This document shows positions 12,369 through 53,009 of a DNA stretch of 64,000 nt, piece by piece. The stretch is from Pseudofrankia saprophytica (GTDB lineage: Bacteria > Actinomycetota > Actinomycetes > Frankiales > Frankiaceae), in the NCBI RefSeq assembly GCF_000235425.2, contig NZ_KI912266.1, forward strand, positions 5,267,217 through 5,331,216, given 5' to 3'. The notes below the pieces were generated by a model, which saw only the letters and a list, made by a program, of their open reading frames with translations, searched no databases and had not been told where the DNA came from. A program made the translations under genes and the position numbers. The first letter of the stretch is position 1. Every line of letters starts with the position of its first letter.

Positions 12369-12653
12369 TCAGGGCGCCGGCTGGTGAACCTCTTCGGATG
12401 GCGCGGGCGGGCGGTTCGTCGCCCAGCGGACACCGGCCACCACGCCCCAGCCGGCCAGCCGGCCGACGGTCCCCTCGACCACCGGCAGGTAGGGCAGCCG
12501 CAGGGGCCACCGCGTCCAGGCGGGCATCAGGCCGACGGCGGCCGCCCCCAGCGCGGTGTACGGCACCCGGGCCGCAAGCGGGAGCGGGGCGCTGACCAGC
12601 AGGTACCGCGCGGCCTGGCGTGCCGGCGGCGTGCCGGCCAGCTCCGGCCCGTC
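12369..12653 (-). pseudogene. MpaB-like (DUF2236) oxygenase, C-terminal fragment
   Basis: On the minus strand, 'GPELAGTPPARQAARYLL' through 'GLMPAWTRWPLRLPYLPVVEGTVGRLAG' aligns with the last 90 or so residues of the intact homologue at 21071-21946 ('RPELAGTPEARSAARYLL', 'GLMPAWTRWPLRLPYLPVAEETVGRIAG'). The similarity stops at about 12653, where the sequence changes to a phage-like gene read on the other strand. The matching N-terminal fragment is at 22001-22480, also on the minus strand. Together the two fragments lack about 52 residues of the middle of the protein, so the gene was split and partly deleted by island 1. Confidence 0.85.
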
Positions 12654-13483
12654 TACCCGCAGGGGGCGGCGCTCCCGAGGAGGGCGAGGGCAGCCCCGGT
12701 GATAGCGCTGGGGGTGACACCCCGGACAGCGGGGGTGAGTCGCCACAGGACGACGCTGGAGCGCCCGACGGCGACGGGAACGACGCCCCCGACGACGAGG
12801 ACGAGGTGGCGAAGCTTCGTAGGCGCCTACGGGCTGCCGATCGCCGGGCGTCCGCGCTCGAGAAGCAACTGAAGGAGTGGGACAGCCGCCCCGAGTCGAT
12901 CGAGACTCGGCGTCTTGCCGATCGAGCTGCCGAGCTTGAGGCCCAGTTGGAGGCCGCGCGGGGCGAGAGCAGGGCAGATCGGATCAAGGTCGCCTTTCAC
13001 CGCGCCTCTCACGAAGTGCAGTGGCACGACATCTCGGATCCGCTTGGTGTCATCGAGAACGCGCCGGGTGTGGTGTACGACCCTGAGACCGGCCGGGTGA
13101 CGGGCATGAAGGAAGCCGTCGCCGACCTGGCGAAGCGGAAGCCTCACTGGGTCAAGGGCAATCAGCCGACCGGCGCTCCCAGGGTGGAGCCAGGGAACGG
13201 CGTCGTGACAGCGGAGAAGGCCGCCGCGCTGGTCAACAAGTACCCGTCGCTTCGTGGTGGCTCGCGCGCCCCGGCGAGCCAGCCCAGCGGCGAGCCAGGC
13301 GATACCGGCGCCGAGCTGAGGAGGAAGTACCCCGCCCTCGCGGAGAACACAGGCCCGAAGGCCAAGCCCCGATCGGATGCCGAGTGGGAACGGAGGAAGG
13401 CCGAGCAGAAGGCCAAGCCCGCGATCACCGACCAGGCTGCCCTGTGGGACAAGTACCCGGGCTTGCGGCCGGGGTCGCTCTGA
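12654..13483 (+). pseudogene. Phage scaffold-like protein, 5'-truncated at the island junction
   Basis: The open frame begins at the junction with the disrupted DUF2236 gene and has no credible native start. It begins with an acidic, Gly/Pro/Asp-rich segment ('GDTPDSGGESPQDDAGAPDG'), continues with a coiled coil ('EDEVAKLRRRLRAADRRAS', 'AAELEAQLEAARGESRAD') and ends with a region repeating the K-Y-P-x-L motif ('NKYPSLRGG', 'RKYPALAEN', 'DKYPGLRPG'). Acidic low-complexity followed by a coiled coil is typical of tailed-phage scaffolding proteins; this assignment rests on architecture, not on a recognised domain. An internal GTG near 12806 could still allow translation of the coiled-coil part. 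Confidence 0.55.
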
Positions 13484-21070: not shown

Positions 21071-21946
21071 ATGGTGGCCAGCACGGTCGTGCTCGAACGG
21101 ACGGAGGACCTGCGGATCTGGCTCGGCGGCCACGTGTTAGGCCGGGTGGCTGGGTCCGAGGGGCCGGCACGCCGGGAACGGATCTTCGAGGCTCCTGGGA
21201 AGCGCTGGTTCACCGAGGATCGGCCCATCCGCCGCGTACACGCGGATGCGTCGATGTTCGTGGGCGGCCTGCGCGCGCTACTGCTCCAGTCGCTGCACCC
21301 GCTGGCCATGGCCGGGGTCGCCGAGCACTCGGACTACCGCAACGACCCGTGGGGACGTCTCCAGCAGACCAGCTACTTCCTCGCTATGACGACCTTCGGA
21401 CCGGCCGAGGGAGCCGAGCGCGCCGTCTCCCGGGTGAAGGGCGTACACCGCCGAGTCCACGGCACCGCGCCTGACGGCCGCCCGTATGACGCCTCCGACC
21501 CGCACCTGCTGCGGTGGGTGCACGTGGCGGAGACAGATAGCTTCCTTGCAGCATTCCAGCGGTACGGCCACACCAAGCTGAGTCCCGAGGAGTGCGACGG
21601 CTACATCGCCGATATGGCTGTTGTCGGTCGACACCTGGACATCCCTGATCTTCCCGAGACGCGCGAGGAGTTGGACACCGCGATCCGGGAGTACAGACCA
21701 GAGCTGGCTGGAACCCCAGAAGCCCGTTCGGCTGCTCGGTACCTACTGCTTCAGGCACCCCTCCCCCTGCCCGCGCGACCGCCTTACGGCGCTCTGGCCG
21801 GAGCCGCCGTCGGTCTCATGCCCGCCTGGACGCGGTGGCCTCTGAGGCTGCCCTACCTGCCCGTCGCCGAGGAGACCGTGGGTCGCATCGCGGGGCAGTC
21901 GATCGTTACGACGATCCGGTGGGCGATGGGACCTAGGCGCGCCTGA
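21071..21946 (+). CDS. MpaB-like (DUF2236) oxygenase family protein, intact copy
   Basis: A 291-aa protein, normal length for the family. It has the family landmarks 'RRERIFEAPGKRW', 'FVGGLRALLLQSLHPLAMAGVAEHSDYRNDPWGRLQQTSYFLAMTTFG', 'VKGVHRRVHG' and 'DPHLLRWVH', whose histidines are proposed haem or metal ligands in latex-clearing and mycophenolic-acid related MpaB proteins. The start at 21071 matches the start of the disrupted copy. Its codon use is less GC-rich than that copy and the two differ at many positions, so it is an imported homologue, not a local duplicate. It may restore the activity lost when island 1 split the chromosomal gene. Confidence 0.88.
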   Translation: MVASTVVLERTEDLRIWLGGHVLGRVAGSEGPARRERIFEAPGKRWFTEDRPIRRVHADASMFVGGLRALLLQSLHPLAMAGVAEHSDYRNDPWGRLQQTSYFLAMTTFGPAEGAERAVSRVKGVHRRVHGTAPDGRPYDASDPHLLRWVHVAETDSFLAAFQRYGHTKLSPEECDGYIADMAVVGRHLDIPDLPETREELDTAIREYRPELAGTPEARSAARYLLLQAPLPLPARPPYGALAGAAVGLMPAWTRWPLRLPYLPVAEETVGRIAGQSIVTTIRWAMGPRRA

Positions 21947-22000: not shown

Positions 22001-22480
22001 ACTGTCCACCTCCGCGAGATGCACCCAGCGCAGCAGATGCGGGTCGGAGGCCGCGTACGGCCGCCCGTCAGGCGCCGTCCCGCTGACCCGGCGGTGCACA
22101 CCCTTCACCCGGGCGACGGCCCGCTCCGCCTCGTCGGCCGGCCCGAACGTCGTCGCGGCCAGGAAGTAGCTGGTCCGCTGCAGGCGGCCCCAGGGGTCGG
22201 CGCGGAAGTCCGAGTGTGCGGCCACCCCGGCCATCGCGAGCGGGTGCAGCGACTGCAGCAGCAGCGCGCGCAGGCCGCCGACGAACATCGCCGAGTCGCC
22301 GTGGACCCGCCGGATCGGGCGGCCCTCGGCGAGCCACCGCTCGCCGGCGGCCTCGAAGATCCGTTCACGCCGCCGCGGACCGTCCGGTCCGGCCACCCGG
22401 GCGAACACCTCGCCGCCGACCCACGAGCGGATCTCATCCGCGTCGACGGGCAGCCTGGGCACCCTGGGCAGCACCATCAC
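22001..22480 (-). pseudogene. MpaB-like (DUF2236) oxygenase, N-terminal fragment
   Basis: From the start at 22480 the protein matches the intact copy from 'RRRERIFEAAGERW' through 'DPHLLRWVHLAEVDS' (about 160 residues) and then changes to an unrelated 'SNRPCHN' and a stop at 21977. The rest of the gene is the fragment at 12369-12653. Both fragments have native high-GC codon use and the same strand, which shows they were one gene before island 1 arrived. Confidence 0.88.
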
Positions 22481-40179: not shown

Positions 40180-41639
40180 TGTCCGAGCAGCGAATGTTAA
40201 TCAACGGCAAGCTCGTCGACGCCGAGGGCGGCCGGGTCTTCGACAACGTCAACCCGGCGACCGAGGAGGTCCTCGGGGTCACCGCCGACGGGTCGCGCGC
40301 CGACATGGAACGTGCGGTCGCCGCGGCCCGGGCCGCGTTCGACCAGTCGGACTGGGCGCGCGACCACGCCGGCCGCAAGAAGGCGATCCTGCAGCTGCAG
40401 GCGGCGATCGAGGCCGAGGTGGAGGAGTTTCGGTCCGAGCTGGTCGCCGAGGTCGGCTGCCCGGTGATCACGACCTACGGGCCGCAGCTCGACGCGCCGC
40501 TGCGGGAGGCGCTGCGCTGGCCCGCCGAGCAGATCGAGTCGTTCCCGTGGACGCGGACACTCGAGGCGAAGGACGCCTTCGGAATGGGCTACCTCTCAGC
40601 CCGGGAGGTGTGGAAGGAGCCCGTCGGGGTCGTCGGCGTGGTCACCCCGTGGAACTTCCCGCTCGAGATCGCGCTCAACAAGCTCGGCCCGATCCTCGCC
40701 ATGGGCAACACCTGCGTGCTCAAGCCGGCGCCGGACACCCCCTGGAACACCACCCGGCTCGGCCGGCTCATCGCCGAGCACACCGACATCCCGCCGGGCG
40801 TCGTCAACATCGTCCCCTCGTCCGACCACCTCGTCGGCGAGGTCATCTCCACCTCTCCCCTGGTCGACATGGTCGCCTTCACCGGCTCGACCGTCACCGG
40901 CCGGCGCATCATGGCGGCGGCGGCCGCCACCGTGAAGCCGACGTTCCTCGAGCTCGGCGGCAAGTCCGTCAACCTGTTCCTCGACGACGCCGACTTCGCC
41001 CAGGCCATCCCCAGCGCCGCCATGGTCTGCATGCACGCCGGCCAGGGCTGCGCGATGCCGACCCGGCTGCTCGTGCCGAACTCCCGCTACGACGAGGCCA
41101 TCGAGCTGGCTACCGCCGCCTTCGAGGGCGTCAAGTACGGCGACCCGACCGACCCGTCGGTGCTGCAGGGCCCGCAGGTCTCCCGCCGCCAGCAGGAGCG
41201 GGTGCTCGGCTACATCGAGTCCGGCCGCGCCGAGGGCGCCCGGCTGGTGCTCGGCGGCGGCGTGCCCAAGGACCTCGACCGCGGCTACTTCGTCGAGCCG
41301 ACGCTGTTCGCCGACGTCACCCCCGGCATGACGATCGCCCAGGAGGAGATCTTCGGCCCGGTGCTCGTCATCATCGGCTTCGAGGACGACGACGACGCGG
41401 TCCGCATCGCCAACGACTCCGTCTACGGCCTGTCCGGGGTGATCACGTCGGCCGACCTCGACCGGGCCAAGGGCCTGGCGCGCCGGATCCGCACCGGGAC
41501 GCTCGGCCTCAACGGCGGCCTCTGGTACGGCGCCGACGCCCCGTTCGGCGGCTACAAGCAGTCCGGCATCGGCCGCCAGTGCGGCCTCGAAGGCCTGGAG
41601 ATCTTCACCGAGACCAAGACGGTCAGCTGGCCCGCCTGA
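40179..41639 (+). CDS. Aldehyde dehydrogenase family protein
   Basis: A 486-aa ALDH. Landmarks: 'VTPWNFPLEIALNKLGPILAMGNTCVLKPAPDTPW', 'FTGSTVTGRRIM', 'FLELGGKSVNLF' with the general base, 'HAGQGCAMPTRLL' with the nucleophilic Cys and 'EEIFGPVLVI'. It overlaps the preceding DHDPR-like gene by one base. Island 2 begins 33 bases after its stop codon. It probably oxidises an aldehyde made in the same pathway; it is distinct from the ALDHs at 5395 and 26701. Confidence 0.94.
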   Translation: MSEQRMLINGKLVDAEGGRVFDNVNPATEEVLGVTADGSRADMERAVAAARAAFDQSDWARDHAGRKKAILQLQAAIEAEVEEFRSELVAEVGCPVITTYGPQLDAPLREALRWPAEQIESFPWTRTLEAKDAFGMGYLSAREVWKEPVGVVGVVTPWNFPLEIALNKLGPILAMGNTCVLKPAPDTPWNTTRLGRLIAEHTDIPPGVVNIVPSSDHLVGEVISTSPLVDMVAFTGSTVTGRRIMAAAAATVKPTFLELGGKSVNLFLDDADFAQAIPSAAMVCMHAGQGCAMPTRLLVPNSRYDEAIELATAAFEGVKYGDPTDPSVLQGPQVSRRQQERVLGYIESGRAEGARLVLGGGVPKDLDRGYFVEPTLFADVTPGMTIAQEEIFGPVLVIIGFEDDDDAVRIANDSVYGLSGVITSADLDRAKGLARRIRTGTLGLNGGLWYGADAPFGGYKQSGIGRQCGLEGLEIFTETKTVSWPA

Positions 41640-41657
41640 CCCAAGCCGAACCGTGTC

Positions 41658-41699
41658 GGATGGGCAGGCCTATAGTTCCCTGAGTCTCAGCACTCACAA
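41658..41699. other. attL of island 2 (serine integrase attachment site)
   Basis: From left to right: chromosomal half-site GGATGGGCAGGCCT (41658-41671), core AT (41672-41673) and element half-site of 26 bases (41674-41699) that ends GTCTCAGCACTCACAA. Each half is an inverted match to the corresponding half at 51702-51743 at the same distance from the core, exactly as expected for attL and attR of a large serine integrase. ATAG is common to both sites. Confidence 0.85.
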
Positions 41700-41715
41700 T
41701 GATATGATCTTACTT

Positions 41716-43296
41716 ATGACGCTACAACGATCCGTGACCAGGACGTTTGGTGCAGGCAGCGAGAGCGGGGCGGCGCTGCGGGTGGTGATCTATGCCCGCC
41801 GGTCTGCCGCTGGCGGGACGTCGACGGCTGATCAGGTCCGGATGGGTCAGGAGGACGCTGGCCACCACGGTTGGGCTGTGGTGGCTGTGCATGCCGAGTC
41901 TGGACAGTCAGCCAGTATGTACCGCAAGGACGGTGCGCCGCGCGCGGAATGGGCAAAGGTGCTGGATCTTGTAGCGGCCGGTGCGGTGGATCTGGTGTGG
42001 GTCCGGGAGACGTCGCGGGCGGATCGTCAGATGGCGACGTGGGCGCCGTTCCTCGACGAGCTGCGCCGTGGCGGGGTGGGCCTGTATGTGCAGGCGGATC
42101 GGCGGTTGTATGACCTGTCGGTGTGGCGTGATCACAAGACGCTGCTTGAGGACGGGATCGACAACGCGGACGAGTCGGCGAAAAAGTCCAAGCGGGTCAA
42201 GGACGGTGTCGATGACAACGTCCGCTCGGGCAAGCCGACGGGTGCCGCGCCGCTGGGGTATCGCAACGTCTATGACCCGCGCACCCGCAAGCTGACAGCG
42301 CGGGAGGTCGATCCGGCGTGGTCGGCGGTGGCGTCGGAGATGTTCGATCGGGTCGGGCGGGGTGACTCGTTGGCGAGCGTGGCCCGGTGGCTGAATGGCA
42401 AGGGCGCGCCGGTGCCTCGGGCGGGGAAGCGCTGGGATGAGCGCATCGTCCGTACCGCGTGCGAGAACCGCGCCTACCTCGCGGAACGGGTCCACACCTT
42501 CTTCGGTGACGAGATGCCCACGACGGTGCCGCAGGGCTGGCGTGCGCTGGTGAGTCGGGCGCAGTGGACGGCGGCCCAGAACGCTCTCCAAAAGATCGCC
42601 ACGGTGCACGCGGTCCGGGGCCGCGCTCCGGGTGCCTATTCCAACCTGATGTCGTTCACCGCGACGTGTGGTCTGTGCGGTGCGCCGGTCGCGGTGGGCA
42701 ACGCACGTGGGGTGCGGGTGTACGTGTGCTCGTCGGGTAGTCGCCACGCGGTGGTCAACCAGCAAGACACGGACGACTACGTGATGCGTCTGGTGGTGGC
42801 GCGGATGGCGCGCCCGGACCTGTTCGCCAGCCTGACGGCTGCTGACAACGACGTGATCCGTAAGGCGGAAGCCGAGGTGGAGGGGATCGAAGCGGAGCTA
42901 GCCGAGCTCGGCGCGGAGGTGAAGAACCGTTCCGGCCGTGCCCGGTTGGCCGCGCTCGACGCGATCGACGATTTGGAGATCAAACTCGGCGCGGCGCGGG
43001 AGCGGTTGGAAAAGCTCGCGGTGCCTGCCAGTCTGCGGGAACTCGCCCATGGTGCACGGGAGGACGAGAACGCGGTACGGGCGAACTGGGAGGGCATGAC
43101 AATGGCGGCGCGTCGGGACGCGGTCCGGTCGTTGCTCGCCTATTTCCGGGTCCTGCCCGCCCCGGTCGTCGGGGTCAGTCCTCGGACGGGTAAGCCGATG
43201 AAGGCACGTGGAATCCGTGGGGCTCTCGATCCACGCCGCGTCGAACACGACTGGCGGGACTTCACCCAACCTGCGGCGCAGATCAGTGCAGCCTGA
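41716..43296 (+). CDS. Large serine recombinase (site-specific integrase)
   Basis: A 526-aa integrase from the ATG at 41716 (an ATG at 41704 is also possible). The N-terminal resolvase domain has the nucleophile Ser30 in 'VVIYARRSAAGG', plus 'VDLVWVRETSRADRQM'. A recombinase domain follows ('AKKSKRVKDGVDDNVRSGKPTGAAPLGYRNVYDPRTR', 'SLASVARWLNGKGAPVPRAGKRW'), then a zinc-ribbon-like part near residue 317 ('TCGLCGAPVAVGNARGVRVYVCSSG') and a coiled-coil at about 378-435 that normally governs integration versus excision. It starts 16 bases inside attL, the usual int-att arrangement. Confidence 0.95.
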   Translation: MTLQRSVTRTFGAGSESGAALRVVIYARRSAAGGTSTADQVRMGQEDAGHHGWAVVAVHAESGQSASMYRKDGAPRAEWAKVLDLVAAGAVDLVWVRETSRADRQMATWAPFLDELRRGGVGLYVQADRRLYDLSVWRDHKTLLEDGIDNADESAKKSKRVKDGVDDNVRSGKPTGAAPLGYRNVYDPRTRKLTAREVDPAWSAVASEMFDRVGRGDSLASVARWLNGKGAPVPRAGKRWDERIVRTACENRAYLAERVHTFFGDEMPTTVPQGWRALVSRAQWTAAQNALQKIATVHAVRGRAPGAYSNLMSFTATCGLCGAPVAVGNARGVRVYVCSSGSRHAVVNQQDTDDYVMRLVVARMARPDLFASLTAADNDVIRKAEAEVEGIEAELAELGAEVKNRSGRARLAALDAIDDLEIKLGAARERLEKLAVPASLRELAHGAREDENAVRANWEGMTMAARRDAVRSLLAYFRVLPAPVVGVSPRTGKPMKARGIRGALDPRRVEHDWRDFTQPAAQISAA

Positions 43297-43703
43297 CCAG
43301 CGCAGAGCCTGCGCGGTGGCCGGCTGGTCGTCGTGGGTGTAGTCCTGGTGGGCGTCGCGCTCGGCGGGCTGGTCCTGGTGGGCGTTGCTCTCGGGTCGCG
43401 GCCCGGCCGTGTCTGCCGGATGGCTGGGGCTAATCTCTGAACTCCGATGATCGTTTAGCCCGGTATGAGAATGTAGCCCTAAGATTGATGTTGTCTACGG
43501 CGATTCCAGGGGCCTTTACGGCCAATTCTTCTGATCTTGCCGTGAATGGCTCCGACCGGGATTCTCGGATTCGGCTGCATTTACCGGCACGGCGGTTTAC
43601 AATGGTAAGCAGAACGACAACTCAATAAGGCGGCCCGGGACGGTGCGCTAACACCAATCCCGGGCCTTGATCCCAAACCTTGAGCTAGCAAGGAGTGGAA
43701 CCC
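43297..43703. other. Intergenic region with short direct repeat, promoter-like site and leader hairpin
   Basis: GTCCTGGTGGGCG units recur at 43342 and 43372 (30-base spacing). Around 43440-43620 the GC falls, with TACAAT near 43600 as a -10 candidate. A terminator-like hairpin is at 43632-43666. No gene is recognised; a 35-residue hydrophobic frame over the repeat has no ribosome site. Confidence 0.5.
43632..43666 (+). terminator. Terminator-like hairpin in the leader of the 43704 gene
   Basis: GGCCCGGGA (43632-43640) pairs with TCCCGGGCC (43658-43666), followed by TT. It lies between a likely -10 (TACAAT near 43600) and the AAGGAG ribosome site at 43689-43694, so it may attenuate rather than end transcription. 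Confidence 0.55.
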
Positions 43704-44102
43704 ATGGCCATCATGGCAGATGGGGTGCGGGCTGTTGCCTTCACCCGTCACGGAGTTGGGGCGGATCGGCTCGCAGACCAGCGGCGGGCGTTTCGGGCGG
43801 CGTGCGCGGAGCGTGGCTGGGTCGCGGGTGGTGAGGTCTGCCAGATCGGTACCGGTGGCGGCCGTGGCCGTGCGTGGGCGACGGTGCGGCGGCTGGTCCG
43901 GATGCGTCGGTATGACGTGGTCGTGGTCGACGCGTTGGACACCATCGGCGCAAACGAGCGGGAGATTGCCCGGGAGCTGGTTCTCCTGCGCCACGCGGGG
44001 GTGCGGCTGCTGATCGCGTCGACCGGTTGGGACACGGTCGAGCCGCTGGTCTCGGACCTGATCGTGGGTGCCCTCGGCTCGGCGGCGGGGGTGGCGGCGT
44101 GA
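43704..44102 (+). CDS. Stand-alone serine-recombinase-like domain lacking the catalytic serine
   Basis: A 132-aa protein with AAGGAG before the ATG at 43704. It has the resolvase N-domain pattern: 'RLADQRRAFRAACAERGW', 'RLVRMRRYDVVVVDALDTIGANEREIARELVLLRHAGVRLLIAS'. The catalytic Y-x-R-x-S motif reads F13-T-R15-H-G17, so serine is replaced by glycine, and the D-R-L-S-R motif reads D-A-L-D-T. No recombinase or DNA-binding C-terminal domains follow. It is therefore a pseudo-recombinase that could bind the integrase and modulate it, for example as a directionality factor. This role is inference. It is translationally coupled (GTGA) to the next gene. Confidence 0.85.
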   Translation: MAIMADGVRAVAFTRHGVGADRLADQRRAFRAACAERGWVAGGEVCQIGTGGGRGRAWATVRRLVRMRRYDVVVVDALDTIGANEREIARELVLLRHAGVRLLIASTGWDTVEPLVSDLIVGALGSAAGVAA

Positions 44103-44575
44103 ACGGCTGGCCGCTGGTGCGGGCCCTGACGCTGCCAGACAGCGGATATGGCCTGGAAGTACAGGTAGGCGCGACTCCAGCCGAGATCGGCACCGTCGCG
44201 GCGGGGCTCCCCCCGGCGTCGTTCGTCGATCACATGCCCGCACGGCACGCGGGAGTGGTGCTGCTATTCCGCCGGTTCCCGGACGGTGTACCCGACCCGG
44301 CGGCATCGTCCAGCGGGCCCGGCGGTGGGCAGGAAGCCGTGACGATCCCTGGCGGCTGGGTACCGGACGTCGCGGCGGTGCCAGACCGTGGCCTGACCCC
44401 GTACCAGGTCGCGGCCTACGAACTGATCTCGGCGGCGGCGGACTCGGCGATCGGGGCCCGTGTCTTCGACCTGGTCAGGCGGGAGGCTCCGGAAACGGTC
44501 GTCGCACTGGCGGGCCTGCTGCGAGACGGGACACGGGGCCGGTGCGGCTGCCGGTCGGATCGGCACGGCTCGTAG
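44099..44575 (+). CDS. Hypothetical protein coupled to the recombinase-like gene
   Basis: A 158-aa protein from a GTG overlapping the previous stop. It has no recognised domain. The N-terminal half is beta-like ('LVRALTLPDSGYGLEVQVG', 'HAGVVLLFRRFPDGV'), and the C-terminal half is helical ('TPYQVAAYELISAAADSAIGARVFDLVRREAPETVVALAGLL'). The overlap with the pseudo-recombinase suggests a shared role in the element's maintenance. Confidence 0.7.
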   Translation: MNGWPLVRALTLPDSGYGLEVQVGATPAEIGTVAAGLPPASFVDHMPARHAGVVLLFRRFPDGVPDPAASSSGPGGGQEAVTIPGGWVPDVAAVPDRGLTPYQVAAYELISAAADSAIGARVFDLVRREAPETVVALAGLLRDGTRGRCGCRSDRHGS

Positions 44576-45229
44576 TCCAGGTGGACGGCGGCGGCCGACG
44601 ATCCTGCACAGGGTTGCCGGCCGTCGCCGTTCCGGGGCCTCGGGGCTCTGCCCCGTCATACCCCTGGCTGAGCGGGGCTTCTCCGGTGGGCAGGCAAGCT
44701 CTGCTTTGCTACAGGGTTCTCGGCCGTGCAAGATCCGCCCGTCGTTGCCTGCGCTCATCGTGTCGGGTGGCGGTCTTGCGCGGTCGGGGTTCCTGTGGCA
44801 ACCCTCTGGGTGCCTGCTCACCGGAGGAGACACGCGGACTCCCGCCCTGCCCTGTCCCCTCTCCGGAGGCGGCCGGGGGTTCGGGGGCTGGCCCCCGAGC
44901 ACTAAACCGGACTCGCCCGGCTCACTGTCATGCCTGCGGTATCGCGCTGCCTACTGACGGATTCCGCGGTGGCCTTCACCGTCCTGGTGGTGGGGTGCGA
45001 CGGGCCGACGCTCCGACGCTCCGGGTGGGTGGCAGACCCGACACGCCCGGGGTGCCGAGCGAAGCGAGGCGGGGCCCCGGGGCGTGGCGGGGCTGACGGG
45101 CCCCACCCGGAGCGGCGCGTGCGGCGCGCACGGCGCACCCCACCACGGCGGCCGAAGGCCGCCCTTGAAGATGTACAGAAAGTCTGCGACGGCGATCATC
45201 GACCTGCGCGCCGAAGGGCGTCCGTGGGG
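44576..45229. other. Gene-free segment of island 2, GC-rich inverted repeats
   Basis: About 650 bases without a convincing gene. It contains several GC-rich hairpins (for example GGGGCCTCGGGGCTCTGCCCC near 44635 and a GCGCGTGCGGCGCGC patch near 45113). It may hold termination or transfer/replication sites; nothing specific can be named. Confidence 0.5.
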
Positions 45230-46375
45230 TCATCCGCGCTGTGGATCGCGCCTGCCTGCTGCTCGCTCAACCTCCGTGACCAGTAGGCGCAGGGTCAACG
45301 AGTGCTTGTCCGGAGGTAGACGGTCCATGGCGGCGTGTGCGTACTGGGTGCCGCCGTCGCGGTCACCGGCCCGCGCGAGCATCAGCCCACGGTGCAGCTC
45401 AAGATGAGTCGCGAATCGTGGAAGCGACGATGGAAGCAGGCTACGGGCGGTGTCCTGCGCTTCCACTGCGTCGCGCTCGTCGCCGAGTCGGGCGTGTAGG
45501 AGGCTGGTGAACACGTTCATGCGCCACTCAGGAACGGCGTAGTCGGACGTCTGTTCCTCAGAGCCTGCGGCGTCGAAAATGCGTCGGCCTTCGGTGAGCA
45601 GGTCAAGCGCGGTGGTCCGGTCGCCTCGGATCGCTGCTACGTGGGCGAGGCCCATGACGGCGTTCAGTCGGCCGAGTGACGGCCTGTCAGAGATCTCGAA
45701 TGCCTGGCGGGCGAAGGACTCCGCGATGCCGAGCGAGGCTCCTTCGTAGCCAAGGGCGATCGCTGCCCGCCCGCGTACCCAGACTCGGGTCTGGTCGTCT
45801 TGGGATCGGTCTGCGGCGGTGGCGGCTGTCCGGTACCAATCCACGGCCTTGGACCCGTCAGCCCCGGGGAAGGTCTTCCCGAAGAGGGTGGCGAGCTTGG
45901 CGGATACGCCCCAAAGCTCCGGTCGATCTAGTTGCTGTTGGAGAACGAGCAGGTCAATGGCCAGGCGCCGTTGGATCTCGGCCGCGCCAAGGGCCATGTA
46001 GTCGGCGCCGTACGTGGCGAGCTTTTCGTGCCACTCGTCGACGTCTGGGCCGTGGCCCTGGAGTCTGGCACTGAACCCAGCGTGAATGAGGTCGCTCGCG
46101 ACGAGTGGGGCGATCGACGTGGCGGCGAGATCGGTCAGAAACCTGCGGCGGTCCAACTTTTCATTCTCCAAGACTTGGAGCGGCACCTGGAGGACGGCGG
46201 CGAGGTGCCGGAGCCAGTACGGGTCAGGGCAGGTGATCTTTCCCGTCTCCCAGCGGGACACCGTCTCGCGGGTGACTGTCGTGCGGCCGGCTACCCGGCA
46301 AAGCTCGTCAGCTAGCCGGCCCTGGGACCAGCCTCGCGCCGAGCGCAGTTCTCGCACAAGTTCTCCGACTGCCAC
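45230..46375 (-). CDS. XRE-type helix-turn-helix regulator with TPR-like C terminus
   Basis: A 381-aa protein from a GTG. 'LVRELRSARGWSQGRLADELCRVAGRTTVTRETVSRWETGK' is a Cro/C1-type HTH. After it comes 'LDRRRFLTDLAATSIAPLVASDL', a twin-arginine-like segment frequent in these regulators, and then helical TPR-like repeats ('GASLGIAESFARQAFEIS', 'GDRTTALDLLTEGRRIFDAAG'). It is divergent from the Nudix gene, and a perfect inverted repeat (46392-46405) lies 17 bases upstream of its start, suggesting autoregulation. It probably controls excision or replication of island 2. Confidence 0.9.
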   Translation of the reverse strand: MAVGELVRELRSARGWSQGRLADELCRVAGRTTVTRETVSRWETGKITCPDPYWLRHLAAVLQVPLQVLENEKLDRRRFLTDLAATSIAPLVASDLIHAGFSARLQGHGPDVDEWHEKLATYGADYMALGAAEIQRRLAIDLLVLQQQLDRPELWGVSAKLATLFGKTFPGADGSKAVDWYRTAATAADRSQDDQTRVWVRGRAAIALGYEGASLGIAESFARQAFEISDRPSLGRLNAVMGLAHVAAIRGDRTTALDLLTEGRRIFDAAGSEEQTSDYAVPEWRMNVFTSLLHARLGDERDAVEAQDTARSLLPSSLPRFATHLELHRGLMLARAGDRDGGTQYAHAAMDRLPPDKHSLTLRLLVTEVERAAGRRDPQRG

Positions 46376-46391
46376 ATGACCATCATGCCCC

Positions 46392-46405
46392 TAGTGCTGC
46401 CACTA
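46392..46405. promoter_or_regulatory. Inverted repeat, candidate XRE operator
   Basis: TAGTG-CTGC-CACTA is a perfect 5-4-5 inverted repeat directly upstream of the XRE gene and in the gap shared with the Nudix operon. Confidence 0.5.
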
Positions 46406-46745
46406 CCCGCGACAGTGCGCCACCGGCAGGCTACGTCTAGGCCCTCGGGCCGGCAGCACGGATGCCGGCCCGAGGTGCCACAGAAGCAGTCGGTTATCTG
46501 GGACGGAGGACGAGCGGGCACGCATCCGAATGACCGCACGGGACGTGCCGGGCGGCTGGTCGGGCGGCCAGGGTCGGCCCCGGTACTACAGCGCCACAGG
46601 CTACGGCTCTCACTTCGGCCTGCGGGTGCAATCCTCCGGCCGATCGCCTGATGCCGGCGCGGCGGGCCGGCGGGCGATACAGCACGGGATCCGGCATCAT
46701 CGTCGACGCGGACAAGCCCAGAAGCCGGAACCGGAGGAAAGCGCG
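46406..46745. other. Divergent promoter region, no gene recognised
   Basis: About 340 bases between the XRE operator candidate and the Nudix start. An open frame from 46530 runs into the Nudix gene but its composition is not coding-like before 46746. A well-placed GGAGGAAAG precedes the Nudix ATG. Confidence 0.5.
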
Positions 46746-47195
46746 ATGAAGAAAGTGCTGGAGGTAGCGTGGAAGGCAATTCGTGGCCCGGCGCAGTGGT
46801 GGGTACTGTGGGCGGCGCACTCTAAATTCATGATCGGCGTCACTGGGGTTGTGACGAACAGCGACGGTCACGTGCTCCTTTTGCGCCACCGGCTATGGCC
46901 GGAACGCCGACAGTGGGGCCTGCCGACGGGATACGCGAAAGCGTCGGAGCGATTCGAGGACACGATCGTTCGCGAGGTTCGCGAGGAAACAGGGCTCAAT
47001 GTGGAGGTCGCCGAACTGGTGCACCTGAAAAGCGGCTACAGACTACGGGTCGAGGTCGCCTACGCGGCCACTTTCATCGGCGGCAAGCTCAAAATCAACC
47101 CTTCGGAGATCCTGGAGGCAAGATGGTTCCCGCCGGACCAACTACCGGAAGGGACACACGACTCTCATCGGCTCCTGATCCAGACGGCGCGCTGA
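46746..47195 (+). CDS. Nudix hydrolase
   Basis: A 149-aa protein with GGAGGAAAG before the ATG. The Nudix box is complete: G62-x5-E68-x7-R-E-V-R-E-E-T-G-L ('REVREETGL', residues 76-84). Such enzymes hydrolyse nucleoside diphosphate-linked compounds in a Mg-dependent way. The N-terminal 'AIRGPAQWWVLWAAHSKFMIG' is hydrophobic and might attach the protein to the membrane. Nudix genes recur in actinobacterial integrative elements, where their role is unknown. The downstream gene begins inside its last 73 bases. Confidence 0.93.
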   Translation: MKKVLEVAWKAIRGPAQWWVLWAAHSKFMIGVTGVVTNSDGHVLLLRHRLWPERRQWGLPTGYAKASERFEDTIVREVREETGLNVEVAELVHLKSGYRLRVEVAYAATFIGGKLKINPSEILEARWFPPDQLPEGTHDSHRLLIQTAR

Positions 47196-48208
47196 TCTGG
47201 CGGTCGCAACACGAGCCGCTCGCACCGAACGAGCATCTGGGCGGCCGGCTGGCAGATCGGGCTGACGCTAGTCTGCTGCTCGCTGCCGCACGAGCAACCG
47301 CCGCGCTGGACCGTGCCCACCCCGCCCACCCGGACCTGACGTTTCTATCGCTCTACGCTGTGGTCGGGGCATGGGACCAGCAGGCTCGGGAGATCTTCCG
47401 CGTCGGGACGGCGTTAGCAATGGCCCGCTGCGGACAGCTCGGGTTACACAGGATGCTTCCGCCAGATCGCGTATGGGTGGGCATCCGTTCAGAATCGGCG
47501 GAGAGGTATGGCGGGTTCCACCATGGGGGCCAAGGATACCGGCACCTCCAGATGGGCGCGGTGGTCACCCAGCACGGCTATCTACACCCGTCGCAGCCAG
47601 GCACGCCGCCTACTCTGGTAGCGCTGGATCTGCTGCGGTCGTACACACACGATTCTCTGCACTACGGAACATTCCGCGAGTATGTCATCTACGAAGCTGA
47701 GGTGTTCCGCACCCGGTACGGGATCAACCGCCGGGATCCTGGCGGGCTCTCATTCTCCGCTGTAGACCCTCCGGACGCCGAATCTACGCGGAACCTTGGC
47801 GTGGTAATGGAGGGAGCGACGGATCGGGAGGCCCGGACGGTCGCTCGCCATACGGCGGTCGCTCTCGGCCTGTCGGCGCCAGCGGACGCGTCAAACCGCG
47901 TCATGTTCCACGACACCACAGGCCAACTCACCGGCGCCGAACGCGCCAAGCTCGCCTCATGCTTGTACTCCGCCGAGACCTACGGCTGCGGCATCGACCG
48001 CTACCTTGCCGCTCTGGCCGCCTACAACCGCGAGGTAGACACCCGCTACACGGCGTTCCTCGCTGAAATCGGCGGCAGGGAGGCCGAAGACCTTCACGTG
48101 CTGATCGTGGCCGCGATGGTCACCGGGGATCTCGGCGAACTGACGCGATGGCTGGACCAGCGCCACGGCGCAGACGCCTTCGACCGCATCTTTCGCCGAT
48201 CCGGCTAA
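47123..48208 (+). CDS. Uncharacterised protein, overlapping the Nudix gene
   Basis: A 361-aa protein. The ATG at 47123 follows GGAGG by 5 bases and overlaps the Nudix 3' end by 73 bases; no better start is seen before residue 90. I do not recognise the family. Characteristic stretches are 'RSESAERYGGFHHGGQGYRHLQMGAVVTQHGYLHP', 'ALDLLRSYTHDSLHYGTFREYV' and 'SCLYSAETYGCGIDRYLAALAAY'. The histidine-rich 'GGFHHGGQGYRHLQ' and 'THDSLHYG' segments could bind a metal. Tight overlap means it is made with the Nudix enzyme. Confidence 0.8.
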   Translation: MVPAGPTTGRDTRLSSAPDPDGALIWRSQHEPLAPNEHLGGRLADRADASLLLAAARATAALDRAHPAHPDLTFLSLYAVVGAWDQQAREIFRVGTALAMARCGQLGLHRMLPPDRVWVGIRSESAERYGGFHHGGQGYRHLQMGAVVTQHGYLHPSQPGTPPTLVALDLLRSYTHDSLHYGTFREYVIYEAEVFRTRYGINRRDPGGLSFSAVDPPDAESTRNLGVVMEGATDREARTVARHTAVALGLSAPADASNRVMFHDTTGQLTGAERAKLASCLYSAETYGCGIDRYLAALAAYNREVDTRYTAFLAEIGGREAEDLHVLIVAAMVTGDLGELTRWLDQRHGADAFDRIFRRSG

Positions 48209-48352
48209 CTCGATCGGCGGCGCCATAGCCGGCGGGGTCACGCCAGCGGACCCGAACTTACTGACAGAGACGAAAAGTGCCGCTGCGGCACGGAACATCG
48301 TTCAGACTGGAGGAGCAATGCGCACGTCCGGCCGCATCGGACAGGAGCGAGC

Positions 48353-49306
48353 ATGCATCGACCACACCGGCGTACCCTGCTGCGCGCGGGTCTCGCCCTT
48401 CCGGTGGCAGCGATGACGGCTGGTGCTGCCGACGCTGCCGGCGCTGGTAGCGCTACCGAAATCCGCGAGAGCATAGACAACGGGGTGGCGACGCATAACG
48501 CCCGCTGGGAGGTTACGCCGCTGGCGACCGTGTTGGACGACTGCCATCACTGGTCCTACCTCTGCGGTCAGGTCGGGACGTCCGGCGATGCCGACTGGGA
48601 GGCTACAGCCGCTCACGTCGCACTGCTCGATGCCCGAGCGCACCTCGATAGTGGCCTCCCGGATAGGGCGCTGGAACTGGCGCAACGGGCAAGGATGCTT
48701 GCCCGGGGGCATGGGGATCTGTACACCGAGCTGCGTGCGGATCTGGTCGCGGCAGGAGTGTGGGACGCTACCCGGCCCGAGAGTTACGGCGTGCCTGACG
48801 CAATCCTGGCCAAGGTGCGTACGCGCGGCCGTGTTACGTGGCTGGCGGCGACTGCCGCTGTCCTCGGGGCGAATCTGAGCGCCCGGCGTGGCGATGTCGA
48901 CGCAACGGTGCTGCTGGTCAAGGGTGCCGAACGGCTTGCGGGGCAACTGGGCGCCTCGTCGCCGGGTGACTATAACCGCGCCCATGTCGCCGCGTTCAGT
49001 GCAAACGCGCTGGTTCGGGCTGGCCTGGGGAAGGCGGCTCGCCCACGGCTGAGCCTCGCGGCCTATCTGGCCGAGGATCAGGGTCCCGGGCTGCGCTCGG
49101 CGGTTGCCCTCTACGAATCGCGGGCGGCGTTGGACGGCGGCGATCGGGCGGAAGCGGCCAGCCACGCGAGGCGCGCGCTCGATATCTCCGCCGGTCGGCC
49201 GGCGTCGTGGCTTGCTCGGTCGGTGATCGAGCAGGCGCGGCAGGCTGGCGATGGGTATGGCTGGGACATGCTCGCCAACCGGGCGGGCTCCTGGCAGATG
49301 GCCTAG
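48353..49306 (+). CDS. TPR-like protein with twin-arginine-type N terminus
   Basis: A 317-aa protein with GGAGCGAGC before the ATG. It starts 'MHRPHRRTLLRAGLALPVAAMTAGAADA', a good Tat-type signal (R-R-T-L-L, hydrophobic core, A-x-A end). The body is a helical repeat array ('GLPDRALELAQRARMLARGHGD', 'GDVDATVLLVKGAERLAGQLG', 'GDRAEAASHARRALDISAG'). It resembles the C-terminal half of the XRE-TPR regulators but has no DNA-binding domain. The counterpart in island 1 is at 18822-19844. Function unknown; export is suggested but the same motif occurs inside cytoplasmic XRE regulators. Confidence 0.8.
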   Translation: MHRPHRRTLLRAGLALPVAAMTAGAADAAGAGSATEIRESIDNGVATHNARWEVTPLATVLDDCHHWSYLCGQVGTSGDADWEATAAHVALLDARAHLDSGLPDRALELAQRARMLARGHGDLYTELRADLVAAGVWDATRPESYGVPDAILAKVRTRGRVTWLAATAAVLGANLSARRGDVDATVLLVKGAERLAGQLGASSPGDYNRAHVAAFSANALVRAGLGKAARPRLSLAAYLAEDQGPGLRSAVALYESRAALDGGDRAEAASHARRALDISAGRPASWLARSVIEQARQAGDGYGWDMLANRAGSWQMA

Positions 49307-49768
49307 GGCCGACGGGTCATAGCCGTGGGGCTGACCCTGCGCTAGGCGGCATATAGGTACGGGGGCATGGGCTTGGGGCCTGTGCCCTCGTTTTCTTGTG
49401 TTTGGCTTGTTTGGGGTGTGGCTGGCTGGGTACGGTGGGGTCAGGTCATCGGGTAGACCCTTTAGAGCCCGTTAGGGCTAGGTCAAGATTCCCAGACCTG
49501 GATTAAGTACGGGTGCCGCCACACGGAAAGCTGGCCATGAGGACGACGGCCCGGGCTTCGGTGTCACCACCTACGCGCTTGGTGTGACCTCCGCGAGCAA
49601 CAGCGGTAGGTATCCCGGGCGCACCCCACCTGCGGGTGGGGCGGCCTGCGGGCCTCGACTCCATCTTCGCGTTGCCTTCACCCCGGTCTGCCGCGCTGTG
49701 CGGCGTTGGTGGTGGGTGTGACGTGAGGTGTGGTCGGGCCTGCTTCCCGGGGTGGGGGCGCGGTCCCG
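49307..49768. other. Region upstream of the replication initiator with hairpins
   Basis: No gene is recognised. CCCCACC (49624-49630) and GGTGGGG (49635-49641) form a hairpin, and GGTGT-containing arms lie near 49558-49590. Being directly upstream of a rolling-circle initiator gene it is a candidate origin or regulatory region, but no nick site can be named. Confidence 0.5.
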
Positions 49769-51178
49769 ATGACCGAGGCATCTTCGTCAACGACACCAGC
49801 AACCGAGGGCTGTAGCCGGCCTGTGCGGCTCTCCGGACGGTCGGATCAGGTGGACCTGGCGACCGGTGAGATCCGGCGGGCGTCGGCCCCGCCGACGGTG
49901 CATGTGCGGTGTAACAACCGGCGGGCGTCGGCCTGTCCGGACTGCTCGAAGCTGTATCAGCGCGATGCGCGGCGCATCGTGGTGCGCGGCCTGGACACCG
50001 GCCCCGACGGCGCGGCTGCGGTGGCGGGTGGGCCTGCCTGGTTCGTGACCCTCACCGCCCCCAGCTTCGGGCCGGTGCACTCCCGGCGGGCCAGCAAGGG
50101 CGCGGACAGCCGAGTGTGTCGGCAGCGTCGTGGAACCTGCGAACACGGCCGTGCCCTGTCCTGCCATCTGCGCCACGATGCGGATGACCGGCGTCTTGGT
50201 GAGCCGCTGTGTCCGCGCTGCTTCGACTACAGCCGCGCCGTGGTGTGGAACGCGATGGTGCCCGCGCTGTGGAAGGCCACCCGGGACCGGTTGGAATCCG
50301 CGGTGGCCTCGGCGGTCGGGCTGACGGTCACGGGGCTGCGCCGGGTGGTGCGGGTGTCGTTCGTGAAGGTCGCGGAGATGCAACGGCGGGGCCTGGTGCA
50401 TCTGCACGTGGTGGTCCGGGTCGATGGCCGTGACCCGTCCGGCGAACCGACCACCCCGCCCGAGTGGGCGTACGGGGATCTGATCGCGGACTGCCTACGG
50501 GCGGTCGTTGACTCCGTGGCGGTGGCTGCTCCCGACCCTGCGGCCGTGGCGCTGTTCGACAGCTCGGGGGCGCTGCCGTCGGCGGCGTCGGTCGGCGGGT
50601 GGGCGGTGCGCTGGGGTGGGCAGGTCGACATCCGCCGGATCCGGCTGGGCTCGGACGTGGACGCGGTCAAGGTCGGTAACTACCTGGCGAAGTATCTGAC
50701 CAAGTCGGTGACCGACTCCGGGGCGCTCGACGGGCCGGTGCGGTCGCTGCGTCACCTTGCCCGGCTCGGCCTGCGCGGACACACAAAGCGGCTGGTCGAG
50801 ACGTGCTGGCGCCTCGGCACCGACCGGGCGTTCGCGGAAGCGTTGGATGCGGCGGCGGGCCGTCCGGCGGGCCGAGTGTCGGGGCTGATCCGCTGGTCGC
50901 ACTCGTTCGGTTTCGGTGGCCACTGGCTCACCAAATCGCGGAAGTACTCCACCACGTTCCGGCAGTTGCGCGGGATGCGGCGGCGCTGGTCGCGGCTACT
51001 CGCGGCGGCGCTGTCCGGCCGTCCGCTGGGCCTGGACGACGACGGCTCGCCGGTCGTGCTCGACGAATTCGGCCGACCCGACGGCGACCCCCAAACGGAG
51101 ATCATCGGACAGTGGCGCTACGCCGGACGTGGCCGTGACCCTGCCATGGCGCAGAACTCGCGCGGGGTGGGGTCGTGA
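49769..51178 (+). CDS. repSA: Replication initiator, RepSA-like rolling-circle (HUH) protein
   Basis: A 469-aa protein from the ATG at 49769. It carries the rolling-circle initiator motifs in order: motif 1 'WFVTLTAP' near residue 90, the metal-binding HUH motif H211-L-H213 in 'GLVHLHVVVRVDG', and the catalytic tyrosine motif Y305-L-A-K-Y309 in 'VGNYLAKYLTKS'. Cysteines in 'RASACPDC', 'CRQRRGTCEHG' and 'CPRCFDYSR' may bind zinc. The whole arrangement matches RepSA of pSAM2-like elements, which nick the origin of the excised circle and replicate it. Confidence 0.92.
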   Translation: MTEASSSTTPATEGCSRPVRLSGRSDQVDLATGEIRRASAPPTVHVRCNNRRASACPDCSKLYQRDARRIVVRGLDTGPDGAAAVAGGPAWFVTLTAPSFGPVHSRRASKGADSRVCRQRRGTCEHGRALSCHLRHDADDRRLGEPLCPRCFDYSRAVVWNAMVPALWKATRDRLESAVASAVGLTVTGLRRVVRVSFVKVAEMQRRGLVHLHVVVRVDGRDPSGEPTTPPEWAYGDLIADCLRAVVDSVAVAAPDPAAVALFDSSGALPSAASVGGWAVRWGGQVDIRRIRLGSDVDAVKVGNYLAKYLTKSVTDSGALDGPVRSLRHLARLGLRGHTKRLVETCWRLGTDRAFAEALDAAAGRPAGRVSGLIRWSHSFGFGGHWLTKSRKYSTTFRQLRGMRRRWSRLLAAALSGRPLGLDDDGSPVVLDEFGRPDGDPQTEIIGQWRYAGRGRDPAMAQNSRGVGS

Positions 51179-51648
51179 CGCGGCGGCGCGGGAGTGGGCC
51201 GGTGGCTGGACAGGTCGCGCTGTCCTTCGACGACCGGGCTGACGTGCCCGGAGCGGCAGACGTGACCGGAGCGGTAGATGTCGTTACGGTGTGTAGTGAA
51301 GTTCACACCTTCTACTCGGCGTCCGCCTCGTCCTCAACCAGAGCGGGGGACTGGGCGGGCGCCGAGGAAGCTGCGCCTCCCGTGGGGGTGGGGGGGTGGG
51401 CCCCGTCCCGTCCAGCGGCGTCGCATAGACGATCACGCGTTACCGGCGGGACGGCGGGCGCGGCTCGTAGTGCACGCACTGACGATCCTGCTCCGCTATC
51501 GGATCATGACCGCGTCGCGGCCATCCTGGCGGCGCAGGAAGAGGCCATCCGACGAGCGGTGGAATCGGCACCGCCGGTGCCCGTCGAGGTCGCCAGTCAC
51601 CTGCGCACGCTGTTCGGCCATGTGCACATAGCCGGCGAAACTCCGTAA
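51175..51648 (+). CDS. Hypothetical protein coupled to the replication initiator
   Basis: A 157-aa protein from a GTG overlapping the initiator stop (GTGA). The middle is low-complexity; the only structured-looking part is the C terminus 'SDHDRVAAILAAQEEAIRRAVESAPPVPVEVASHLRTLFGHV'. It sits next to attR at the position of xis in many AICEs, but no HTH is recognisable, so an excisionase role is not supported. Confidence 0.65.
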   Translation: MTRRRGSGPVAGQVALSFDDRADVPGAADVTGAVDVVTVCSEVHTFYSASASSSTRAGDWAGAEEAAPPVGVGGWAPSRPAASHRRSRVTGGTAGAARSARTDDPAPLSDHDRVAAILAAQEEAIRRAVESAPPVPVEVASHLRTLFGHVHIAGETP

Positions 51649-51701
51649 CGCGCACCACGCTGCCCGCCGGGGATACGGTCCATCCCGGCATAGGACAACT
51701 C

Positions 51702-51743
51702 TTGTGAGTGCTGAGACACACATCTCGATAGGCCTGCTCATCC
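51702..51743. other. attR of island 2 (serine integrase attachment site)
   Basis: Element half-site 51702-51727 (starts TTGTGAGTGCTGAGAC), core AT (51728-51729) and chromosomal half-site AGGCCTGCTCATCC (51730-51743). The 16-base element arm is the exact inverse of the one in attL, and both lie 10 bases from the core. Confidence 0.85.
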
Positions 51744-51824
51744 GCCACAATCCGTACCCGCTTCAGCGGCGCGGCGGGGCGCCAGGGCGGCGCCGAGGCA
51801 GAAGCGGGCGTCGAACCCCCGGGC

Positions 51825-53009
51825 TCAGGCGCTCCTCGGCATGCCCAGGATGCGCTCGGCCACGAGGTTGCGCTGAATCTGCGACGTGCCGGCGGCGATC
51901 GTGTATTGCAGCGACCACAGGTAGTCGCGCGCGGCCTCCCGCGCCCGGCCGGCGGCGCCGCCCAGCACGGGCCGGCCGAGGATCCGGACCGTCAACTCGG
52001 TGATCTCCTGGGCCAGCTCGGAGAACCGCAGCTTCACCGCGGAGCCGGTCGGGGCGGGCAGGCCGGTCCGTTCGGCCTCGGCAATGCCCAGCTGGGTCAG
52101 CCGCCACAGCGCGTCGACGCTCGCCGAGAGCCTGCCGACCTGCTTGCGCAGCGCCGAGTCGTCCCACGCCGTCTGCCCGCCGGGGCCGGTCGGGGTCGCC
52201 ATCGCGATCTCGAGGAGCGCCCGGACCTGCGAGCGCAGCGTGATGATGTGCTGGGCGAACGCGGTGCCGCGCTCGAAACGCAGCGTCACGTTCGTGACCC
52301 GCCAGCCGTCGTTCTCCTCGCCGACCCGGTTCGTGACAGGAGCGCGGGCGCCGTCGAGGAAGACCTCGCAGAAGTGGCTCTCCCCGTCGATCGTGCGCAT
52401 CGGGCGGACCTCGACGCCGGGCTGGTGCATGTCCAGGATCAGCCAGCTGATCCCGCGGTGCTTGCGCGCCTCGGGGTCGGTACGGACCAGCAGCTCGCAG
52501 TAGTCCGCGACGTGCGCGCGGGTGCTCCAGATCTTCTGGCCGTGGATGACGTACTCATCGCCGTCCCGGACCGCCCGGGTCCGCAGCGACGCCAGGTCCG
52601 AACCGGCGTCCGGCTCGGAGAAACCCTGGCACCAGACGTCGTCGCCGCGCAGGATCCGCGGCAGGTGGAACGCCCGCTGCGCCTCGGTCCCCTCCGCGAT
52701 CAGCGTCGGGCCGGCGTGCATCATGCCGACGAAGTTCACGGAGATGTACGGCGCGTTCGCCGCCGCATACTCCTCCAGGTAGACCAGCTGCTGGCTGACC
52801 GCCACGCCGCGGCCGCCGAACGCCTTCGGCCAGTGCAGGCCCGCGTAGCCCGCGTCGTACAGCCTGCGCTGCCACGCCGTGTCGTAGGCACGCCGCGCCG
52901 GCCAGTCGCCGGGCGGTGGGGGCGCGCCGTGGGCCGGCACCTCCCTGGCCAGCCACGTCCGCAGCTCGGCGCGGAAGCGCTCGTCCTCCTCGCTGTAGGT
53001 GAGGTCCAT
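51825..53009 (-). CDS. Acyl-CoA dehydrogenase family protein (FadE-like)
   Basis: A 394-aa flavoenzyme. 'WCQGFSEPDAGSDLASLRTRAVRDGDEYVIHGQKIWST' is the FAD-contacting beta-domain block, 'RHRGISWLILDM' follows, and 'AAGTSQIQRNLVAERILGMPR' is the C-terminal signature. It is the last gene of a tightly overlapping leftward operon (ACAD, crotonase, ligase, ACAD). With the shorter ACAD at 55350 it could form an alpha2beta2 heterotetramer like the FadE pairs of steroid side-chain oxidation; this is inference. It lies 82 bases from attR. Confidence 0.94.
   Translation of the reverse strand: MDLTYSEEDERFRAELRTWLAREVPAHGAPPPPGDWPARRAYDTAWQRRLYDAGYAGLHWPKAFGGRGVAVSQQLVYLEEYAAANAPYISVNFVGMMHAGPTLIAEGTEAQRAFHLPRILRGDDVWCQGFSEPDAGSDLASLRTRAVRDGDEYVIHGQKIWSTRAHVADYCELLVRTDPEARKHRGISWLILDMHQPGVEVRPMRTIDGESHFCEVFLDGARAPVTNRVGEENDGWRVTNVTLRFERGTAFAQHIITLRSQVRALLEIAMATPTGPGGQTAWDDSALRKQVGRLSASVDALWRLTQLGIAEAERTGLPAPTGSAVKLRFSELAQEITELTVRILGRPVLGGAAGRAREAARDYLWSLQYTIAAGTSQIQRNLVAERILGMPRSA

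Follow-up and report, generated by a model that had tools for sequence, protein, structure and literature searches.

The window analyzed here, a 64,000-nucleotide stretch of Pseudofrankia saprophytica DNA, contains an integrative element between 41672/73 and 51728/29. Base-level inspection of both ends gives it a length of 10,056 bp, which would also be that of the excised circle. The element is flanked by genes for an aldehyde dehydrogenase (ALDH, 40194-41639) and an acyl-CoA dehydrogenase (51825-53009), and its own genes and end features are collected in Table 1. The start of the integrase gene is 43 bp away from the left core. Residues S30, C318, C321, and C338 of its product are invariant in three integrase relatives in an alignment; we take S30 to be the candidate serine nucleophile and the three cysteines to be candidate members of a zinc ribbon. 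No solved-structure match to the integrase was found at an E-value of 1e-3. Among 35 genomes of the family, integrases of this kind, at more than 75% identity, occur only in the element's own genome (G000, 9.98 Mb) and in two relatives, taken to be Pseudofrankia asymbiotica NRRL B-16386 (G028) and Pseudofrankia sp. BMG5.36 (G032), where both are 77% identical to the integrase of the element.

Table 1. Genes and end features of the integrative element, in window coordinates.
Feature	Position	Strand	Evidence or remark
attL, combining the left half (41653-41672) of the 40-bp attB palindrome with the right half of attP	41653..41699		top-scoring half-site of the window
Crossover dinucleotide AT, left copy	41672..41673		center of attB and attP symmetry; junction identity ATAG
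Inner attP arm, GTCTCAGCACTCACAA	41684..41699	+	exact inverse at 51702
Large serine integrase, 526 aa	41716..43296	+	PF00239 3.4e-12 and PF07508 5e-9; phrog_95 integrase 2.2e-54
Small resolvase-N-domain protein, 135 aa	43695..44102	+	PF00239 3.6e-6
HTH regulator	45230..46375	-	NsdA-family model below cut-off, 61.1 bits vs 75
Nudix protein	46740..47195	+	
ORF	46895..48208	+	no Pfam or NCBIfam match; start position uncertain, 5' part overlaps the Nudix gene in a different frame
ORF	48353..49306	+	no Pfam or NCBIfam match
RepSA-family replication initiator	49730..51178	+	PF20199 3.6e-128
ORF adjoining attR	51175..51648	+	no Pfam or NCBIfam match
attR, combining the left half of attP with the right half (51729-51748) of the attB palindrome	51702..51748		51729 ranks second among the half-sites of the window
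Inner attP arm	51702..51717	-	exact inverse of 41684-41699
Crossover dinucleotide AT, right copy	51728..51729		

The gene content joins an integrase to a replication initiator, a combination expected of an AICE, and the element carries AICE modules without tra, in keeping with the AICE remnants and mobilizable elements, defined by the lack of tra or rep, that are described in a survey of such elements (PMC3218068). The replication initiator scores 268 against a cut-off of 700 for the NCBIfam RepSA equivalog, and it shares 91% identity across 333 aa with a RepSA protein of G028 that adjoins a different serine integrase (36% identical). That kin of this RepSA lie beside other serine integrases suggests that modules have been exchanged between elements. 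The related RepSA genes at loci L007 (G028:C162), L004, and L006 are 91, 56, and 79% identical to that of the element, and stand beside serine integrases of about 35% identity. The Nudix protein possibly has a role like that of Pif, the Nudix protein that confers conjugal immunity in pSAM2, and Nudix genes are frequent in AICEs by the account of the same survey (PMC3218068). A gene for FtsK/SpoIIIE-type transfer was absent from the ORFs scanned, and nothing in the window matched, at an E-value of 1e-3, the FtsK-like protein that the G028 element encodes. That protein is recognized through PHROGs (phrog_1358, 1.1e-13), without being named by Pfam or NCBIfam, and has an 85% identical counterpart in the G032 element. 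Likewise, Pfam and NCBIfam named no excisionase or directionality factor among the element ORFs scanned, which covered the short ORFs in part. Given that neither a transfer gene nor a directionality factor was recognized, the word intact, applied to the element in a preliminary description of this locus, says more than the sequence supports. The element appears to be an AICE-derived and possibly mobilizable integrative element, whose passage from cell to cell would need help because an FtsK-like transfer gene was not found in it. Within the Frankiaceae, the nearest described system may be Faln2929 of Frankia alni, which likewise combines RepSA with a serine integrase; as described, Faln2929 carries tra and interrupts an endonuclease gene, whereas the window element lies in a dispersed intergenic palindrome and yielded no FtsK-like gene (PMC3218068). 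Serine recombinases were reported for 19 of the 144 AICEs surveyed (PMC3218068).

Inspection of the ends confirms, to the base, the architecture given in the preliminary description and enlarges one part of it. The outer 14-base halves (41658-41671, GGATGGGCAGGCCT, and 51730-51743) are indeed inverted matches with a single mismatch, and their symmetry extends to 20-bp halves (41653-41672 and 51729-51748) in which 18 of 20 pairs are complementary. Rejoining the flanks gives GTGTCGGATGGGCAGGCCTATAGGCCTGCTCATCCGCCAC, a 40-bp palindrome centered on AT, so that the near-palindromic attB proposed earlier is retained at a greater size than the roughly 30 bases then assigned to it. The 16-base inner arms are exact inverses as had been stated, each 10 bases away from the core AT, and the inner halves join into an attP of 54 bp, again as stated. 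The sequence ATAG is common to attL and attR at the junction, and identity alone would confine the crossover to these 4 bp; AT is the center of symmetry of both attB and attP, and symmetry places the predicted crossover on it. Serine-integrase sites comprise an attB of about 40 bp, a longer attP, and a common 2-bp core, and here these are 40 bp, 54 bp, and AT. With the integrase gene next to attL, a palindromic attB, and a longer symmetric attP, the earlier reading of a serine integrase acting on a 2-base core is supported.

Symmetry alone is nevertheless weaker evidence than the preliminary description held, because two other long inverted repeats (12.4-22.4 kb) outrank the element ends in the same symmetry scan of the real window. 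Exact inverted pairs of 16 bp number 28 in the window, whereas 30 random windows matched to it in dinucleotide composition had 4.6 on average and never more than 12, and the 16-bp inverted arm taken by itself is not significant in a window of this size. The combination of an inner arm with a matching outer arm is rare: the best outer match beside any 12-bp inverted pair was 11/14 in the 30 random windows, compared with 13/14 in the element. The two repeats that outrank the element ends are unrelated to it and diverged, and lie at 21102-21532 and 22010-22440 (431 nt at 79%) and at 12451-12659 and 21686-21894 (209 nt at 73%). On comparative grounds, the ends of the element are settled by two further lines of evidence, a family of repeats and an empty site for a sister element.

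The repeat family came to light through G028, where the locus of the sister integrase (L009) holds a second, complete palindrome 64 bp from the attL half. A first search pattern, written from the window and L009 sequences, matched 13 sites in G000 in forward orientation and none when reversed, and a second palindrome lay exactly 64 bp away in 10 of 10 distinct loci of this pattern, from which the spacing was absent. A covariance model of the resulting 104-bp unit gave 94 matches in G000, 49 in G028, 58 in G032, and two in G030, and none in the four other congeners. These counts are approximate and incomplete: they include both strands, and no more than 150 first-look candidates were scored in any one genome, out of as many as about 10,500. 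The half-site pattern matched 38, 46, and 65 times in G000, G028, and G032, against 0, 0, and 1 times when reversed. That the palindromes are mostly paired is a statement about the copies examined, the later set having been found with the pair model, while a model of the lone palindrome (R1) was run on the window, L008, and L009. Nine stretches with half-sites that had no listed partner were judged by eye; two end in attP-like sequence, five are degenerate pairs, one is a lone palindrome (L204), and one has no palindrome (L203). Several orthologous pairs of units hold the same position between G000, G028, and G032, and one such conserved place has no unit in G029, G030, G033, and G034; the family thus seems to have expanded in this clade and to have been inherited within it.

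Conservation within the family was assessed in 62 units, after three of the 36 distinct unit places read in G000 (L132-L134) were set aside for their misfit to a fixed 64-bp frame; L132 also lies within a called ORF. AT stands at the center of 107 of the 124 palindromes of these units, and the majority half-site is GTGKYRGATSRGC-NN-GYCYA, with a consensus start of GTG(T/G). L133 and L134 are similar pairs with a different arm (GTGGTCGATG...), perhaps a subfamily of slightly different spacing. In another genus of the family, the unit model gave 10 and 32 weak matches, on both strands together, in two genomes (L101-L116, from G018 and G020); their lengths vary from about 47 to 124 bp, with one listed place at 104, for which reason they are not counted as 64-bp units, and they perhaps represent a different palindrome family. 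Dispersed extragenic palindromes in many copies are also what defines the REP/BIME repeats, which have a linked RAYT (Y1) transposase and start with GTAG. No description of paired palindromes, or of a dispersed palindrome as the target of a serine integrase, was found in the literature searched, coverage of which was partial.

The positions of the units relative to genes, by the gene calls made for this analysis, bear on what the palindromes are. Both neighboring genes were called for 56 of the 62 units (six have a neighbor uncalled, and where units are orthologous between the three genomes each one enters the count), and these genes are tandem in 38 cases, convergent in 17, and divergent in one, against a divergent share of 39% among control intergenic bases (2623/6663). 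A facing stop codon lies within 20 bp of, or is overlapped by, 26 of 58 units. Such placement would be expected if the palindromes were transcription terminators behind genes, whose DNA the integrase exploits, a reading that is compatible with placement of the element by its own integrase. Several properties of the units make it unlikely nonetheless. In the 39 units in tandem context, read in transcript sense, G-U mismatches are no commoner than A-C mismatches (88 and 92 of 1404 pairs), which does not show the tolerance of G-U pairs that marks an RNA hairpin or intrinsic terminator. The two halves are complementary at 12.74 of 18 pairs, compared with 11.81 after halves were shuffled among sites (sd 0.14), an excess that lies beyond all 500 shuffles and is small, so that most of the complementarity comes from the common half-site. 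No Rfam match to the palindromes reached the gathering threshold in the six sources scanned, and neither the exact 64-bp spacing nor the conserved central AT is a feature of terminators. The parity of G-U and A-C mismatches, together with the small excess of complementarity, points to protein half-sites in DNA rather than to RNA hairpins.

The 104-bp units might themselves be sites of a serine recombinase, comprising four 20-bp half-sites in two attB-like palindromes 64 bp apart, each with a conserved, symmetric AT core, and disseminated within a single clade by a recombinase system of which the element is one user. We regard this extension as improbable, about on a par with the terminator reading; it would entail random orientation of insertion and possible inversions between units, and such inversions would fit the break in gene order at the window element, and perhaps that at the G032 element, described below.

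The comparisons identify attB as one copy of the dispersed palindrome family, a point that goes beyond the preliminary description. A half-site matrix built from 52 palindromes of other loci, with the window site excluded, ranks 41653 and 51729 first and second among the 127,962 20-mers of the window (26.8 and 25.7 bits, with the third at 14.1). At 52.4, the rejoined attB lies above the family median of 49.6 and outscores 33 of the 52 family palindromes, whereas 2000 random joins all scored -27 or lower. Some of the resemblance between attB and the family was built in by the first pattern, which had been drawn from the window and L009, but the making of that pattern has no bearing on the reversed controls, the 64-bp spacing, or the vacant site of the sister element. 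The window palindrome stands without a partner at 64 bp (the best contiguous 40-mer of the window scores -4.8, against a family minimum of 12.7), which is what could be said for an ordinary single-copy attB that resembles the repeat by chance; this explanation is strongly disfavored by the rank of the two half-sites under a matrix that excludes them, and by the presence of two sister elements at half-sites of this kind, one of them with an empty unit that was seen.

Both sister integrases have, upstream (5'), a half-palindrome like that of the window element and then a similar attP arm, and the integrase gene adjoins attL in all three elements. A search for the sister attR by attP-arm patterns returned only the known attL arms and matches about as frequent as those of the reversed control, and the candidate attR ends were found by half-site search instead. 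For the G028 element, attL lies on contig C139 (half-site at L009 9938) and attR on C30 (L198 3867), where the half-site is followed by a partly attP-like arm. Both draft contigs end inside the element, and their flanks suggest a single element to which both ends belong: the chromosomal flanks on C139 and C30 align to adjacent stretches of a single G000 locus (L205). When these flanks are rejoined in silico, their alignment to G000 runs across a 104-bp unit; the junction falls on the center of one palindrome, where no base is gained or lost. The empty attB that the preliminary description proposed to seek in a relative was thus found for the sister element, with the flanks of the G028 insertion contiguous in G000 around an unoccupied site. 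This unoccupied unit is somewhat diverged, and the rejoined attB of G028 is a perfect palindrome.

The element of G032 can be followed less far. Its attL flank abuts a unit in G028, and a candidate for its right end on contig C280 has the matching half-site and an inner sequence starting CGAGATG, as in the attR of the window. The C280 flank is not orthologous to the C88 flank of the same element and corresponds to a different place in G028, with no palindrome seen beside it there. Beside this candidate attR lies a gene for an NB-ARC/TPR protein (L197 5573-7180, G032:C280) whose first residues resemble the tail of RepSA by eye, a resemblance not reported by tblastn at 1e-5; the gene is possibly part of a decayed element end.

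Orthologs of the genes that flank the window element are common within the genus. Those of the acyl-CoA dehydrogenase are at least 81% identical in seven of the eight genus genomes, its own included (the best match in G031 is 57%), and those of ALDH are at least 93% identical in six of the eight, with G031 and G034 lacking one. In the flanks fetched from the five congeners that have close orthologs of both, the two genes are in no case neighbors; the other two congeners lack a close ortholog of one or both. In G030 and G033 the acyl-CoA dehydrogenase lies at a contig edge, with 66 and 98 bases of 3' flank, and the ALDH side alone is informative. An apparent decayed left half in the 3' flank of ALDH in G032, and another hairpin following ALDH in G030, are suggestive only. 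Since the flanks are not neighbors in these five congeners, the empty site of the window element itself is reconstructed, not seen. These comparisons put the window element at a break in gene order, and the G032 element may lie at one too. Such breaks, together with the capacity of dispersed repeats to recombine, might suggest that the junctions were made by another enzyme, a transposase or the machinery of homologous recombination between repeats, but this is very improbable given the integrase gene against attL in all three elements, the meeting of a palindrome half with an attP half at each end, and the rejoining of the G028 flanks without target duplication beyond the core.

Comparison of the genomes demonstrates the ends of the element, the membership of attB in the family, and the insertion of a sister element at a palindrome center with an empty counterpart in G000. 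Very probably, then, an AICE-derived element was placed by its own serine integrase through recombination of a 54-bp attP with a dispersed 40-bp palindrome serving as attB, cut at the central AT. The integrase would catalyze the exchange, with each dimer predicted to bind two 20-bp half-sites. Serine integrases exchange strands by subunit rotation. In the proposed sequence of events, integrase dimers would bind attP and attB, the latter being one member of the palindrome family, cut both at the 2-bp AT core and rejoin them, steps that are described as established for this family of enzymes (PMC3556126, PMC3783163). The closest parallel for the sites is the integrase of Listeria phage A118 and its relatives, reported to have a minimal attB of 42 bp, an attP of 50 bp, a 2-bp core, and the same half-site architecture (PMC3556126, PMC3783163). 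The core of A118 is an asymmetric GG that fixes orientation, in contrast to the symmetric AT of the window element, and A118 mutants with a symmetric core are reported to recombine in both orientations (PMC3556126, PMC3783163). The natural AT core is accordingly predicted to permit insertion of the element either way round. The displacement of the outer (zinc-domain) motif between attB and attP shows no distinct peak at the shift of 5 expected from A118 (24/54, compared with 23 and 24 at shifts of 7 and 10). Because many palindromes lie just 3' of genes and very few lie between divergent genes, insertion at this multi-copy target should do little harm.

The phiRv1 prophage of Mycobacterium tuberculosis also has a serine integrase whose attB lies inside a host repeat, REP13E12, which is long and partly coding. 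The present system resembles that of phiRv1 in placing attB in a host repeat and differs in that the repeat is a palindrome of 40 bp, which usually comes in pairs spaced 64 bp apart, is present in tens of copies, and has a symmetric core. To our knowledge, the well-studied serine integrases each favor a single attB in the genome and have an asymmetric core by which direction is fixed. Mobile DNA directed to dispersed extragenic palindromes is also represented by insertion sequences with REP palindromes as targets; these are described as using transposases (PMC1525189), whereas insertion by a serine integrase through attP and attB is the probable route here. Serine-integrase elements and the use of repeats as targets are thus already known, and what is new is a multi-copy family of palindromic attB sites with a symmetric core. 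The system described here is a natural one in which each genome offers tens of candidate sites, attB is a nearly perfect palindrome, and the core is symmetric, so that the determinants of direction and target choice become testable on natural sites. For the Frankiaceae, described as completely lacking genetic tools as of 2011 (PMC3218068), the palindrome family could provide multi-copy landing pads.
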